Shown here: positions 6,736 through 61,601 of the stretch, one piece after another
How positions within the stretch are numbered: position 1 is the first letter of the stretch
Layout of the letters: every line of letters begins with the position of its first letter
Origin: a virus
Reading direction: 5' to 3' (one strand)
DNA: 64,000 nt
Virus record (IMG/VR): IMGVR_UViG_3300048999_000173
Span: 1 to 64,000 of that record
Program-made: the position numbers and the translations under genes
The notes under the pieces: generated by a model
The model's input: the letters and a program-made list of their open reading frames with translations, nothing else
What the model was told of the DNA's origin: nothing
Databases searched by the model: none

Positions 6736-6999
6736 TCAGATGCCCAGCCACGAGGGAGGCGGCTGGATGCACGGCGCTGTGGCAGGCCTGCGCCACGCCG
6801 ACGTCGGGTCCTCAGGGTCGACCTGCTTGCGGCCGTCCTCGGTGAGGACGAACTCCTCGTACCTGATCACCAGGTCGCCGTCGACCGTGTCGATTGACAG
6901 GTTGGTGTGCAGGGGAACAGCGTTCGGGTCGATGCCGTTCGCGGTCAGCCACTTGCACAGGGCTACGCGTTCTTCTTCAATCGGATTGCCCATGGCCAT
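6736..6999 (-). CDS. hypothetical protein
   Basis: 87 residues from ATG 6999, which overlaps the stop of the upstream gene (TGATG). An alternative ATG at 7014 would add five residues. It contains ERVALCKWLTANGIDPNAVP then LSIDTVDGDLVIRYEEFVL, a pattern recurrent in actinophage small proteins, and a Trp/Pro-rich C-terminus. No domain of known function. Confidence 0.65.
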   Translation of the reverse strand: MAMGNPIEEERVALCKWLTANGIDPNAVPLHTNLSIDTVDGDLVIRYEEFVLTEDGRKQVDPEDPTSAWRRPATAPCIQPPPSWLGI

Positions 7000-7400
7000 C
7001 AGAGCGGAATCCATCCGTCGCCGCCGTCGCCCTTCAGCGTGGCGTTGCAGTCGTAACAGATCCCCGTTCCACACCCAGGCTGGTCGCCCATCTCCTTGGT
7101 GTCGATGACGTTCTGGTGGGAGCAGTGGTTCTCCAGGACGTGCCACACCAGCAGCCCGTCCGAGGAGATCGCAGTGCGCGCGTTGCGTCCCAGGTAGCAG
7201 GGGATGGGCTGCCCGGTGCCGACGATCTGGAAGCCGCGCCGCATGTGCTGCTGGCTTGCGTGGCGGGCCAGGTACCAGACGTCGACGGCACCGGGGCGGC
7301 GTACAGCCGCGTGGAGGATGTCGCCGGTCAGGTCGACGCCATGCGGACGGTCGTCGATGGGGAGTTCGGTGCGGTGGATTACGTCCTGGGCAGCCAGCAT
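6999..7400 (-). CDS. hypothetical protein, DUF7352-like N-terminus
   Basis: 133 residues from ATG 7400 in an ATGA overlap. Residues 8-60 (HRTELPIDDRPHGVDL, GDILHAAVRR, AVDVWYLAR) resemble small phage proteins of the DUF7352 type. The C-terminal half is rich in Cys and His (NHCSHQ, CGTGICYDCN), so it may bind zinc. Same leftward operon as its neighbours. Function unknown. Confidence 0.6.
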   Translation of the reverse strand: MLAAQDVIHRTELPIDDRPHGVDLTGDILHAAVRRPGAVDVWYLARHASQQHMRRGFQIVGTGQPIPCYLGRNARTAISSDGLLVWHVLENHCSHQNVIDTKEMGDQPGCGTGICYDCNATLKGDGGDGWIPL

Positions 7401-7828
7401 CAGGGAGCCTCTTCGGCGGGCTGTGGGAGGTCGATGTGCTTGCTGTGGTGGAGCGGGGTGGTGGCGATGTCGCCAGCGGCTTCCTGTTCGGACAGCAGGT
7501 AGTACGTCTTGCCGCCGTCGTGGGAGAACGCCTCCGAGTTGCGGACGGATTGCCACAGAGGACTGGTCGTCATGCCTTCGGCGTACCGGTCGATCCACTC
7601 GTCGGGGTTGTCGGTAAGGTCGGACAGCGGCTGGTAGCGCAGGAGTTTGTCGAGGTAGAGCGCGGTGAAGTGGGCGCTGCCGCCGGAGTGGCCCATGTCG
7701 GCGAAGGCTTGGACGACACGGCACACGCCGTTGATGAAGTCTTGGTCCTCGCCGACGATTCGGAGTTCGCGGCGGGCGTGGGCGACGAGGTTGGACTCTT
7801 CGCGGGGGCGTTTCTGGGCTGGGGGCAT
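7400..7828 (-). CDS. hypothetical protein
   Basis: 142 residues from ATG 7828. Mostly helical and soluble, with ESNLVAHARRELRIVGEDQDF and AHFTALYLDKLLRYQPL as recognisable amphipathic segments and an acidic, Pro-containing end. It overlaps the next gene by 4 bases. No family recognised. Confidence 0.65.
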   Translation of the reverse strand: MPPAQKRPREESNLVAHARRELRIVGEDQDFINGVCRVVQAFADMGHSGGSAHFTALYLDKLLRYQPLSDLTDNPDEWIDRYAEGMTTSPLWQSVRNSEAFSHDGGKTYYLLSEQEAAGDIATTPLHHSKHIDLPQPAEEAP

Positions 7829-7941
7829 ACGTCCACGGTGCCGCGTTTCGGCGGGGGTGTTGCCCCCTGCTGGGTCGTGGGGCCTGGTGGTGGCTGCTTC
7901 CCCTTGTGAGCGCTCCACCGGGCCCCACGCGTGCAGGGTGG

Positions 7942-8214
7942 TCAGCCCCAGGTGGTGTCGAGGGGGGTGACGGTGCCGCCGGTGCCCGTGCCGGGGTTGG
8001 TGGGCGGGGTGGTGCCGTCGGTGGTGGTGCCGTTGTCGACGGTGGGGGTGGTGTCGGGGGCGCCCCAGGTGGTGTCGCCCTGCGGGCTGGCGATGAGGTC
8101 GTTGGTGAGGGCGGCGCCGGTCGCGGTCGCGGCGGCGAGTCCGAGGCCGGCGGCGATGGTGCGGAAGCGGAGGGTTTTTGCGGGTTTCGGGGTGCGGTGT
8201 TTTCCGTGACTCAC
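7942..8214 (-). CDS. small secreted protein with repeated DTTWG motif, candidate signal precursor
   Basis: 90 residues from GTG 8214 (GAGG 8 bases upstream). A basic N-terminus (GKHRTPKPAKTLRFR) precedes a hydrophobic segment at residues 20-37 (AAGLGLAAATATGAAL), consistent with a Sec signal or membrane anchor. The mature part is a Thr/Pro/Gly linker carrying DTTWG at about residues 47-51 and again as the last five residues. It is divergent from a LuxR-type regulator with 287 bp between them. I infer an exported peptide or precursor sensed by that regulator; this is untested. A plain secreted protein is the alternative. Confidence 0.65.
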   Translation of the reverse strand: MSHGKHRTPKPAKTLRFRTIAAGLGLAAATATGAALTNDLIASPQGDTTWGAPDTTPTVDNGTTTDGTTPPTNPGTGTGGTVTPLDTTWG

Positions 8215-8233
8215 AAAGGACCTCTTTCTTCGG

Positions 8234-8262
8234 ATTGTTCGGATGTGTGGACAAACTGTAAA
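8234..8262 (-). promoter_or_regulatory. promoter of the secreted-peptide gene
   Basis: On the minus strand TTTACA (8262-8257) and AACAAT (8239-8234) are separated by exactly 17 bases, close to a housekeeping sigma promoter, with the predicted start 20-30 bases before the GTG at 8214. Confidence 0.6.
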
Positions 8263-8324
8263 GGGGGCGTCTTGCCCGTTCTCGTGCTCAATGATCCTGC
8301 TGCGAATCCCGTTGCCCCCAGGGC

Positions 8325-8343
8325 GTGTTACTGGCAGTTACAC
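8325..8343. promoter_or_regulatory. 19-bp palindromic operator candidate
   Basis: GTGTTACTGGCAGTTACAC is a near-perfect palindrome (arms GTGTTACTG and CAGTTACAC, one mismatched pair) midway in the divergent region between the secreted-peptide gene and the LuxR-type regulator. A second short perfect palindrome, TCCCGCAGCGGGA, lies at 8461-8473, close to the regulator start. Confidence 0.55.
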
Positions 8344-8500
8344 GCATGGGGTGGGGGGAAGGACATTGAGTACGAGCGTCGGGGGACGCCCCACGTGAAT
8401 GCTGCCGTAGGCTGTTTGCACACTCAACCTGTTCACGCTGCGTATTGCCGCAGTGCGCGTTCCCGCAGCGGGACGGTCTGTTTTCTCGGGGGATCGAACG

Positions 8501-9556
8501 GTGGTCATGGAATCTGGGATAGGCGGCGACACCCTGCTGTTGTCGGAGGACGCGGTCCGGGTTTTCGGACTGATCGCCGCTGGTGCGCCGCTCGCGGACG
8601 GGGATGCGGAATTCGTTGCCGAACTCACCACCCTCGGCTATGTGGTGATCAATTCGGAGCACGGGAAGCTGGTCGCATTGGACCCGCGGCACGTGTCCAT
8701 GCGCCGGCTGAAGCAGGAGCTCGCGGAGGCCGCGGAACGCGTCAGCACCCTCCGCGCGCTCCCCGACACCACGAAGGACCTCCTCGCCCAGTTCGAGCAC
8801 TCCCAACTCCGGGCTGGTGAGGGAGCCGAGTACATTCACGACGTGGCGGTGGTCAACACCCGCCTCGATGATGTCGTTGGCGGCGCGGAGTGGGAGATCC
8901 TCGCCGCGCAGCCCGGCGGCCCCCGCACCCGCGAACAACTCGACCGCTCCATGGCCCGTGACACGGCCGCCCTGGACCGCGGGGTGGTGAAACGCACCCT
9001 GTACCGAGCGAGTGTGCGCGACAACCCGGTGACAGCCGAGTACGCGCGGACGATGTCCCACCGCGTCGCGGGCCGTCCTGCGGAGTTCGCAACGCTGACG
9101 GAGCCGTTCGAGCGGGTCATCATCGTCGACCGCAGGACGGCGTTCATCTCCAACCACCTGGTCGCGGACGGCCCGGAGCATGCGGCGTGGCAGGTGACGG
9201 ATCAGGCCGTCATCGCCTACATGGTCGCGGAGTTCGATGAGAAGTGGCGGCGCGCGGACCCGTGGAAGGGCGAGGTCCGCGGCAGGGCGCTGGACATGAT
9301 GTGCGGGCCGGGCGCGGGCGGGGTGCGCACTACCGCCCGGCAGCGGGAGATCATGCGGGACATGGTCGCCGGGAAGGACCAGCGGGCGACGGCGGCCCGC
9401 CTGGAGGTGTCACCCCGGACGGTGTCCGACGAGATCAAGGAACTGAAGAGCCTGTTCGACGCGGAGTCGCGGGAGCAGCTGGCGTTCAAGTGGGCGTTCT
9501 CCCAGGACCGCCTGGTCGGCGTGAACCCGGCGGCCGGGGTGGAGGCCGCGGCGTAG
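8501..9556 (+). CDS. LuxR-family regulator with TrmB/PLD-like N-terminus
   Basis: 351 residues. GGGGGA at 8488-8493 lies 7 bases before GTG 8501, and ATG 8507 is the alternative. Residues 1-60 look like a winged helix (LLLSEDAVRVFGLIAAG, FVAELTTLGYVV). Residues 80-110 form a helical linker. Residues 130-270 resemble the PLD-like sensor half of TrmB-type regulators (ERVIIVDRRTAFISN). Residues 285-340 are a LuxR HTH (TTARQREIMRDMVAGKDQ, ATAARLEVSPRTVSDEIKEL). Divergent from a small secreted-protein gene, it is likely its regulator and possible sensor. Confidence 0.8.
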   Translation: MVMESGIGGDTLLLSEDAVRVFGLIAAGAPLADGDAEFVAELTTLGYVVINSEHGKLVALDPRHVSMRRLKQELAEAAERVSTLRALPDTTKDLLAQFEHSQLRAGEGAEYIHDVAVVNTRLDDVVGGAEWEILAAQPGGPRTREQLDRSMARDTAALDRGVVKRTLYRASVRDNPVTAEYARTMSHRVAGRPAEFATLTEPFERVIIVDRRTAFISNHLVADGPEHAAWQVTDQAVIAYMVAEFDEKWRRADPWKGEVRGRALDMMCGPGAGGVRTTARQREIMRDMVAGKDQRATAARLEVSPRTVSDEIKELKSLFDAESREQLAFKWAFSQDRLVGVNPAAGVEAAA

Positions 9557-17640: not shown

Positions 17641-18843
17641 TCACGCCGCTAGGGCGTTGATCGCCTCGACCGTGGCCGCCGCGGTCTGGTTACCGGCGTA
17701 CCGAGGTGCGCTGAGCATCCCCGCCACCCGCTCCATCCGCTTCACGATCCACGAAATCTGCTCCTCCACTGGCAACGACAGCACCGCCGCCAGGGCATCG
17801 GCCGCACCCTCCACGTCATCGAGCTGCACGCGCGCCGTCGCCAGGTAGATGTGCGCCAGCCGCTCATCGTCCAGCGACCGCTCATCCGCCGGACCCGACT
17901 GCCACAACGCGATCGCCTCAATGGCCTCCCGCGCCGCGCGCTCCGCATCGTGGCCGCCTTGCAGCCAGATCAGCGAAGACCCCGCGTAGTAGCACTGCTT
18001 CGCCCTCGAGAACCCGAACAGACCCTCCAGGGAGTCCGCCTTGCGGATCCGCTCCCGCGCCGCTTCGGCGCCGTCCAGGGCCTGGTTCGCGGCCCGGCTG
18101 TCTCCCAGGTTGGCCAGGCACTGGGCCTCACCACACCGCAGACGAGTCTCACCGGTCCCGTGCCCGTGACCGACCCACTGGTAGCCGTCCCGCACGTACT
18201 CCAGCGCGCGCCCGTAGTCGCCCTGGAAACGGGCGATCAACGACTTCGTGCCAGCCACCCACGCGGACAGCTCCGCGTCCCCGGCGAACTCCGCGCACCG
18301 CCCGGCCGCCGTCGCATGCTCGAGCGCCTCATCGGCGTCGCCCATGTCCAGCAGCGCATACGACAGCACACCCGACAGGCGTCCGGCCGTCACGTACAGG
18401 TCCGAACGGTCCTGCGGCCGGTGATGCCCCGAACGGATCCGCTCGAACGCCTCACCACGCAGCACGTGCGCCCGGTCCATCATCGGCCCCGGGGGAGACG
18501 CCAGATAGTCGACCGCCGTGACCGCGACACCCTCCTGAAGTTCGGAGATGTCCAGGTCCGCGAGCGCGGACAGGTCCCGCGACATCGCCAACGCCGCCGC
18601 GCGGGTGCGGTGCACGGCCGCGGCCTCACGCCGCGCCAGGTCCTCACGCCGCCACTGAGCGACGAGCCGACCGCCCGCCTGCAGCGCTTCGTCGGCGGCT
18701 TCCGCCACCTCGAGCGGCGCAGGCCTGCGCCCGGTCTCCCAGTGGTGCAGAGACGTCCGGTCGTAGTGGATGTGCTGCGCCAGCCGGGCCAGCGACATGC
18801 CAGCCTCCAAGCGCAGCGTACGAAGCAGCTCCGGGAAGGTCAT
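17641..18843 (-). CDS. XRE-family regulator with TPR-like domain
   Basis: 400 residues from ATG 18843, with GAGGAGGAA about 12 bases upstream. Residues 5-60 are a Cro/CI-type HTH (LLRTLRLEAGMSLARLAQH, YDRTSLHHWETGRRP). Residues 140-390 are repeated helical pairs (ALLDMGDADEALEHATAAG, FQGDYGRALEYVRDG, ANLGDSRAANQALDGAEAA), the TPR-like array common in large Streptomyces XRE regulators that bind peptides or effectors. The length fits that class. It could be the lysogeny repressor or a borrowed host regulator. Confidence 0.85.
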   Translation of the reverse strand: MTFPELLRTLRLEAGMSLARLAQHIHYDRTSLHHWETGRRPAPLEVAEAADEALQAGGRLVAQWRREDLARREAAAVHRTRAAALAMSRDLSALADLDISELQEGVAVTAVDYLASPPGPMMDRAHVLRGEAFERIRSGHHRPQDRSDLYVTAGRLSGVLSYALLDMGDADEALEHATAAGRCAEFAGDAELSAWVAGTKSLIARFQGDYGRALEYVRDGYQWVGHGHGTGETRLRCGEAQCLANLGDSRAANQALDGAEAARERIRKADSLEGLFGFSRAKQCYYAGSSLIWLQGGHDAERAAREAIEAIALWQSGPADERSLDDERLAHIYLATARVQLDDVEGAADALAAVLSLPVEEQISWIVKRMERVAGMLSAPRYAGNQTAAATVEAINALAA

Positions 18844-60573: not shown

Positions 60574-61601
60574 GCGCTGACAACCTGCCCGCCAGACCCG
60601 CCGAACGCCCGCTCCTGCCCGCAGAGTTCGACGACGAGCTGCGCGCGCGCCTCGCCGCCCTCGACTCCGCCTCCGACGAACACGCCGCCGACCAACGCCC
60701 CGACAACACCACCCGCGCCTACGCCGGAGACTGGAAGACCTGGGAAGCCTTCTGCACCCAACTCCAGATCCCCCCAACGGCTGCCACCCGCGGCACGCTG
60801 CGCGCGTTCGTCGACTACCTGTGGAACCGGGAGAAGCGCGCCTACACCACCATCGACCGCAAACTCGCCGGGCTCGTCGTCACCCTCCGGCGGCCGCCGT
60901 ACAACGTCCTCGTCGACCCCGACGCCACCCGCGCCGCCCGGGAACTGCTGAAGGACTACCGCAAGAAGGCCGACGCGGCAGAGGAGCCCGCGCGCGGCCG
61001 CGGCAAAGCCCCCGCCATGCGCCTGGTCGACCTGAGGCTCATCGTCTCCAAGTGCGACACCGACATCTTCGGCCTCCGCGACCGCGCGATGATCCTGCTC
61101 GGGTTCTCCATCGCCGCACGCCGCGCCGAGTTGGCCGGGCTCCGGCTGCGGAACATCCGCGACGACGACAACGGCCTCCTGGTCGACGTCCGCGTCTCCA
61201 AGACCGAACCCCGCACGGTGGCTGTGCCGTACGGGCAGCATGCGGCCACCTGCCCCGTGAAGGCGTGGCAGGCCTGGCGAGACGCCGCGCAGATCGCCGA
61301 CCCGGACCGGCACGCCTTCCGCCGTATCCACCACACCGGCTCCGTACAGCCCCAGGGTCTCACCCCGCAGCGCGCCGGCGACCTCATCACCGCCGCCGGG
61401 CTGCGCGCAGGGTTCGAGGAACTCTTCACAGGGCACTCCGTGCGCTCCGGCATGGCCACCGAGGCACGCCGTGCAGGGAAGGACCGCAAGGCCATCGCCG
61501 CGGTCACCGGGCACGCGGACGGCTCCAAGGTCCTGGACGGCTACATGCGGATCGTCGACCAGTGGAGCGAGCAGGACAACGCCCTCATCGGTCTCATGTA
61601 G
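60570..61601 (+). CDS. int: tyrosine integrase
   Basis: 343 residues from GTG 60570 in a GTGA overlap. Catalytic residues of the phage integrase family: R in AARRAEL (about 184), H-x-x-R in TGHSVRSG (H289, R292), H in TGHADGS (H315) and the nucleophile Y in GYMRIVDQ (Y325). The N-terminal part (NTTRAYAGDWKTWEAFCTQL) is the SAM-like core-binding domain. It would recombine attP with a host attB, as expected for this temperate phage. It overlaps a convergent PIN gene by 8 bases. Confidence 0.95.
   Translation: MSADNLPARPAERPLLPAEFDDELRARLAALDSASDEHAADQRPDNTTRAYAGDWKTWEAFCTQLQIPPTAATRGTLRAFVDYLWNREKRAYTTIDRKLAGLVVTLRRPPYNVLVDPDATRAARELLKDYRKKADAAEEPARGRGKAPAMRLVDLRLIVSKCDTDIFGLRDRAMILLGFSIAARRAELAGLRLRNIRDDDNGLLVDVRVSKTEPRTVAVPYGQHAATCPVKAWQAWRDAAQIADPDRHAFRRIHHTGSVQPQGLTPQRAGDLITAAGLRAGFEELFTGHSVRSGMATEARRAGKDRKAIAAVTGHADGSKVLDGYMRIVDQWSEQDNALIGLM

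Follow-up and report, generated by a model that had tools for sequence, protein, structure and literature searches.

The window analysed here is a 64-kb stretch of an 83,576-bp IMG/VR virus record. It carries genes for the terminase large subunit, portal and tape-measure proteins and, at 61029-61550, for a tyrosine recombinase, and a ParA-like ATPase is encoded beyond the window on the same virus record. Since the close relatives of the window are 88-94-kb Streptomyces plasmids such as pSAM1, we infer that the element is most likely a temperate phage-plasmid. An XRE-type transcriptional regulator (17641-18843, minus strand; phrog_10886) is a candidate for its immunity or lysogeny regulator.

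Two divergent genes form the subject of this report. The first, at 7942-8214 on the minus strand, starts with GTG and encodes a peptide precursor of 90 aa. Its translation agrees with the original prediction of a 90-residue signal-peptide-like protein that holds DTTWG twice, once at the C-terminus. A basic N-region is followed by the hydrophobic stretch TIAAGLGLAAATATGAAL, and besides this signal-peptide-like N-terminus and the two DTTWG copies the precursor contains a low-complexity linker. The signal peptide was called by a hydrophobicity rule without a trained predictor, so that export is deduced from the sequence only. The internal DTTWG copy (8062-8076, minus strand) comprises residues 47-51, while the C-terminal copy (7945-7959, minus strand) comprises residues 86-90, the last five of the protein, and is the proposed signal core. 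Counterparts in related phage-plasmids and in phage Chymera lie at the homologous position and have a C-terminal xWG motif; the extreme C-terminal position of the motif is kept across the mobile-element branch.

The peptide gene is followed, on its own strand and after a gap of 112 nt, by a Tad3-like anti-Thoeris gene (7400-7829, minus strand; PF25185, E=6.6e-32), Tad3 being an inhibitor of type I Thoeris. The anti-Thoeris gene is possibly co-transcribed with the peptide gene. The next gene, at 6999-7403 on the minus strand, encodes a DUF7352 protein, and it is possible that the three genes together constitute a signal-controlled anti-defence operon.

The peptide gene shares an intergenic region of 286 bp with the divergent regulator gene, which occupies 8501-9556 on the plus strand. 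The shared region had been predicted at 287 bp; its length was corrected since the GTG at 8501 aligns with the (T/G)TG start codon of the relatives. The region had also been predicted to hold a 19-bp operator-like palindrome. This quasi-palindrome does exist, at 8325-8343, but in an alignment with 21 relatives only its CTGGCAG centre was conserved, and the flanking arms vary yet stay complementary between relatives. Since co-varying arms are the signature of a hairpin and not of a fixed operator, the palindrome was set aside as an operator, and it probably forms part of a hairpin at 8323-8345 (plus strand) with CTGGCAG at its apex. Most phage-plasmids have the hairpin in front of the regulator gene, and the mean duplex energy of its arms was -12.6 compared with -8.5 ± 0.5 for re-paired arms (0/1000 shuffles, relatedness ignored). 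It is possible that it represents a leader RNA structure or a cruciform. A search of the intergenic region against Rfam gave nothing significant, and RNAalifold applied to the whole region detected little covariation. The element CGTCGGGGGACGCCCC at 8377-8392 (plus strand) was invariant or nearly so in the 21 aligned intergenic regions and has one exact match in the window.

A better candidate for the operator, for which there are no DNA-binding data, is the tandem dyad TGCGN6CGCA-N-TGCGN6CGCA at 8439-8467 (plus strand), approximately 62 nt in front of the regulator gene. The window contains no second match, 0.08 being expected. Of the 32 mobile-element loci, 22 have a relaxed form of the dyad, ~62-79 nt ahead of the aligned regulator start; among the 138 chromosomal loci, the strict form was present in 1.

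Predicted architecture of the regulator

The regulator is a protein of 351 aa in which a TrmB-like N-terminus and a PLD-like sensor are followed by a LuxR-type helix-turn-helix (HTH). Residues are numbered here from the ATG at 8507, to which 2 must be added for numbering from the GTG at 8501. Among Pfam models only GerE/LuxR (PF00196) exceeded the cut-off (E=2e-6, residues 278-328); other HTH hits were weak, the TrmB model was not listed and no autoinducer-binding domain was matched, the sensor being PLD-like instead. No TPR repeats were found, either by Pfam or in the predicted fold. A profile built from 22 relatives did match an archaeal TrmBL2 sequence, over profile positions 16-240 (E=0.0012).

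In the AlphaFold2 model (pLDDT 86, pTM 0.50), residues 8-254 resembled TrmBL2 and TrmB (Foldseek E=4.6e-11; VIA Z 16.6, range 14-17) with a large rmsd that is probably due to a differing domain orientation. Residues 104-255, the PLD-like sensor domain (8816-9271, plus strand), matched the nucleases NucT and Nuc with Z of 16-17 and an rmsd of ~2.8. Residues 272-335 (9320-9511, plus strand) matched the LuxR-type HTH of RhlR and VqmA (Z ~11, rmsd ~1.2), and this structural match and the Pfam hit together identify a LuxR/NarL-type DNA-binding domain. The absence of a family from the VIA alignment listing was not taken as a real absence. The layout of TrmB, an N-terminal winged HTH, a coiled linker and a PLD-like sensor, is therefore present in the predicted structure, and the second DNA-binding domain at the C-terminus is where the regulator departs from it. 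According to the model the regulator combines a sensor protein of the TrmB type with an additional LuxR HTH, and the design of "sensor plus HTH" proposed from the sequence is borne out by the model and the GerE match. The HKD motif of PLD enzymes (HxKx4D) is not met, since HxK has been lost and is mostly [FIV]xR (positions 201/203/208). Across 118 regulators the His position was mostly F/I/V/P, the Lys position was Arg in 115 and the Asp position was Asp in 116. With the catalytic His and Lys lost, it is unlikely that the sensor has enzymatic activity.

Recurrence of the gene pair

Since the peptide, which is short and of low complexity, gave no match as a tblastn query against phages and plasmids, relatives were sought via the regulator. 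As a tblastn query the regulator matched 94 plasmid records, nearly all from Streptomyces, as well as phage Chymera, where the pair is flanked by the integrase/immunity-repressor genes on one side and a gene for a DNA-binding protein on the other. In nine of the first ten loci inspected (L003-L012), a divergent ORF was found ~150-350 nt upstream whose 50-78-aa product has a hydrophobic N-terminus and ends in DTTWG, DTAWG, DSAWG or DPGWG; the exception was L010. A further 27 loci, most of them with the same divergent arrangement, came from scanning IMG/VR and species genomes and added the words DSTWG, DTGWG, DTWWG and DSIWG. Regulator homologues were present in 96 of 101 Streptomyces genomes, often several per genome, and many of these chromosomal homologues face a small exported ORF with motifs such as EPSW, DSGW, DIAW, EISW, DPGW and DNGW. 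The signal-peptide-like N-terminus is kept across these very different precursors. The search that had been suggested, of other Streptomyces phages and genomes, thus found the pairing in phage-plasmids, phage Chymera and chromosomes, and one finding that would have refuted the original prediction, that homologous regulators never pair with secreted genes, was not made. The idea of peptide signalling in a phage stands in so far as the pair occurs in phage-plasmids and Chymera, but its presence on chromosomes means that it is not phage-specific.

A divergent secreted [DEN]xxW ORF accompanied 28 of the 32 regulators scoring above 300 bits, which belong mostly to mobile elements, and 57/113 chromosomal regulators scoring 120-300 bits. 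By HMM score the proportion was 13/26 at 160-300 bits, 39/61 at 140-160 and 5/26 at 120-140, with 0/23 below. No such ORF was found in 168 mirrored downstream regions used as a control. Control genes had one in 7/248 cases, five of which were these same regulators again, as duplicate loci or with another start, so that 2 of ~243 are left. Chance does not account for the pair, which is found again in independent loci. In a held-out sample a qualifying partner was found for 34 of 180 regulators, and many of the unpaired ones lie in tandem clusters or in clades where no partner was found. The score-dependent counts and this held-out proportion mean that pairing is a property of particular branches and not of the whole superfamily.

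Several loci deviate from the common arrangement. The plasmid regulators L010, L031, L033 and L071 form a clade in which the code residues described below are kept and the upstream peptide gene is absent; three of the four have a divergent XRE-type gene in its place, and L010, L031 and L033 are 44-45% identical to the window regulator. It is possible that these are eavesdropping or repurposed receptors. Tandem clusters of paralogous receptors were seen in Streptomyces at L239-L253 and at other chromosomal loci; such clusters generally include few peptide genes. At L078 the divergent ORF is very short, lacks a signal peptide and ends in KDSAWG, and residues 131 and 152 of the regulator predict Ser at peptide position 2; this ORF may encode a signal that has degenerated or has no leader. 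The receptor homologues at L279-L297, from smaller genomes of the same class, have the 131/152 residues of Ser-type receptors; each is the only one in its genome, and no DxxW peptide was found upstream of them.

The precursors contain between 1 and 12 copies of the [D/E]xxW motif. The longest array seen, in the L136 precursor, consists of a dozen near-perfect EPSWG repeats. Among the 76 multi-copy precursors, the core was identical in 97% of pairs within a precursor and in 6% between precursors, the former figure being heavily weighted by long repeat arrays. For the mobile set the values were 84% and 20%, a result reached in none of 5000 shuffles. Judged from these identities, the copies look as if they undergo concerted evolution, as in multi-copy pheromone precursors. 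Secreted multi-copy cores are also found in some RiPPs, and the product might instead be an effector, such as a bacteriocin, a multi-core modified peptide or a cell-wall peptide, which the regulator senses as feedback or for immunity. Some peptide-linked operons do contain other small genes, but no annotated modification enzyme, immunity protein or transporter gene recurs beside the inspected pairs, and the sensor belongs to a DNA-binding protein. Furthermore, a core of only four or five residues with a variable position 2 that is mirrored in the receptor is what would be expected of a specificity code. We consider it very unlikely that the peptide is an effector, and favour a signal read by the neighbouring regulator.

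Covariation between sensor and peptide residues

Three residues of the regulator vary with the peptide, all within a span of no more than 22 residues of the PLD-like domain. Residue 152 (codon 8960-8962, plus strand) is Asp when peptide position 2 is Ser or Thr and almost never otherwise. In a training set of 85 pairs, Asp152 occurred in 48/48 pairs in which position 2 was Ser or Thr and in 1/37 of the others, so that the rule held in 84/85; the single exception was L077, with DPNW and Asp152. The rule was written down before new loci were fetched, and the motifs of the held-out loci were chosen without reference to the receptor. It was correct for 34/34 held-out pairs (21/21 and 13/13; p ~1e-9, relatedness ignored), which include 15 regulators less than 70% identical to any in the training set, many of them only 32-47% identical. 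On a tree of 118 pairs, built with columns 131 and 152 excluded, the peptide class changed 10 times and Asp152 nine times, and all nine Asp152 changes fell on shared branches. A model of dependent evolution was preferred over one of independent evolution with a likelihood ratio of 68.5 (p 5e-14).

Column 152 ranked first of all columns for peptide position 2. Column 131 (codon 8897-8899, plus strand) ranked first for distinguishing Ser from Thr at that position, Thr occurring with Ile/Val in 34/34 cases and Ser with Leu/Met in 32/34. For position 3 the first-ranked column was 147 (Arg147 in the window, codon 8945-8947, plus strand), which changed most often together with that position (24 shared change branches, p=2.3e-8, the same data having served for discovery and measurement). 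Peptide position 1 (D/E) changed only twice on the tree, too rarely to give any statistical power, and its simple mutual information was likewise weak. The code is chemically sensible, with an acid for a hydroxyl, Gly/Ala/Ser opposite peptide Ile/Leu/Val and, at 131, another side chain for one methyl more or less. The window pair fits it, with DTTWG facing Ile131 and Asp152.

Since the rule predicted all 34 held-out pairs, and since Asp152 changes on the branches where the peptide class changes, we conclude that the regulator very probably recognises the peptide of its neighbour. The computational evidence for this is strong; there are no binding data. The same results bear on the simplest alternative, an ordinary divergent regulator and target in which the small secreted protein is unrelated and the sensor responds to another ligand such as a sugar. 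Autoregulated divergent pairs are common and archaeal TrmB-type sensors bind sugars (2f5t), but neither the held-out predictions nor the changes on the same branches would then be explained, and such an arrangement is scarcely credible. Together with the recurrent pairing, the co-evolution of receptor and peptide residues supports what had been supposed at the outset, that a secreted C-terminal peptide is paired with a regulator. The window itself has the features of the family that we propose, DxxW peptides with TrmB-LuxR receptors, namely a divergent secreted precursor, DTTWG in two copies, and residues 131 and 152 that fit peptide position 2.

A proposed peptide signalling circuit and its relation to known systems

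What has been established computationally is that the pairing is conserved, that the motif is multi-copy and concerted, and that receptor and motif residues co-evolve, along with the predicted fold of the receptor. In the circuit that we propose, the short gene would produce a precursor exported by a Sec-type route, and extracellular cleavage of this precursor would liberate short peptides based on the DxxW(G) core of its C-terminus (DTTWG in the window pair). The peptide would then re-enter Streptomyces hyphae, for which an Opp/BldK-type oligopeptide permease of the host is the probable route; S. coelicolor is known to import a signalling oligopeptide by means of BldK (PMC11303876). Inside the cell it would bind the non-catalytic PLD-like sensor, where residues 131, 147 and 152 would read positions 2 and 3, a shared pocket not having been demonstrated. 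Binding would alter the action of the LuxR-type HTH on the shared promoter region, for which 8439-8467 is the best candidate site, and so switch the peptide operon, here perhaps including the Tad3 anti-defence gene. In phages and phage-plasmids the signal would report the number of related elements nearby. Export, maturation, import, direct binding, the DNA target, promoter control and the phage decision are all inferred.

The co-evolution data are compatible with sensing of the peptide either after re-import or before export. The regulator might therefore bind the unexported precursor and gauge secretion capacity or operon output without any signal passing between cells. A regulator that binds DNA should reside in the cytoplasm, and neither the pairing nor the recognition code depends on re-import. 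Concerted multi-copy repeats and a core at the extreme C-terminus are however typical of processed secreted pheromones and would have no clear purpose for a sensor acting in cis, and the signal-peptide-like N-terminus has been retained in very different precursors. Sensing confined to the producing cell is in our opinion unlikely, and we consider with fair confidence that the peptide is an extracellular signal. For the gene pair as a peptide pheromone with its cognate receptor-regulator, in the full circuit described, our confidence is good, in the absence of any experiment. Control of lysis and lysogeny as such remains a tentative suggestion.

Quorum signals of Actinomycetota are usually described as small molecules made by enzymes (PMC10075063). 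Many LuxR-type proteins of this phylum lack matching signals, and their presence has been called intriguing (PMC4748050). The openly licensed papers searched contained no description of a system like the present one, subscription journals and preprints being outside the scope of the search. We are inclined to believe that Streptomyces and their temperate phages hold a large undescribed class of peptide signalling, with dozens of private DxxW words, matched TrmB/PLD-LuxR receptors and a code of two to three residues, in which phages use their own words (DTTWG, DTAWG, DPGWG etc.) to sense each other and to time lysogeny or anti-defence genes. If this is true, many LuxR-type proteins of Actinomycetota would gain gene-encoded ligands, identifiable from the genome sequence, and the receptor code would be open to test by single substitutions. 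It would also be a second, unrelated case of phage peptide communication after arbitrium, and would make available inexpensive synthetic peptides with which one could attempt to switch silent genes or prophages in Streptomyces.

With regard to its parts, the system borrows from several known ones. The predicted fold of regulator residues 8-254 is that of archaeal TrmB/TrmBL2 (Z 14-17), to which the window regulator adds a C-terminal LuxR HTH; archaeal TrmB senses sugars, whereas for the window regulator the evidence points to peptides. To our knowledge TrmB has no secreted partner. The GerE/LuxR-type HTH is shared with the LuxR/LuxI systems of AHL quorum sensing, but no autoinducer-binding domain was found in the regulator and the evidence on the ligand points to a gene-encoded peptide. 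The BldK/bld261 signal of S. coelicolor is an extracellular oligopeptide imported by an ABC permease (PMC11303876), and by analogy a BldK-type permease is a possible import route for DxxW peptides, with no link to bld261 being claimed.

The closest parallels in logic are with peptide systems of other bacteria. In arbitrium (AimP-AimR) of Bacillus phages, as here, a phage encodes a secreted precursor, a short C-terminal peptide and an adjoining cytoplasmic DNA-binding receptor, and several peptide types exist among related phages. The receptor AimR belongs to the TPR-containing RRNPP family, for which the TPR is the defining feature (PMC10075063). The Streptomyces pair differs in its TrmB/PLD-like receptor with a LuxR HTH, its DxxW(G) core, its multi-copy precursors, its divergent genes and its Streptomyces hosts, and the proposal of an arbitrium-like logic built from different families is thereby upheld. 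Like the RRNPP systems (Rap, Rgg, NprR, PlcR, PrgX), it has an adjacent gene for an exported propeptide (as judged by its sequence), a cytoplasmic receptor within the range of 250-500 aa (351 aa in the window), and members on both chromosomes and mobile elements; unlike them it comes from another phylum and has another fold, no TPR domain having been found in the window regulator. Neither the receptor nor the signal belongs to any peptide-signalling family tested, and what they have in common with RRNPP is the logic.
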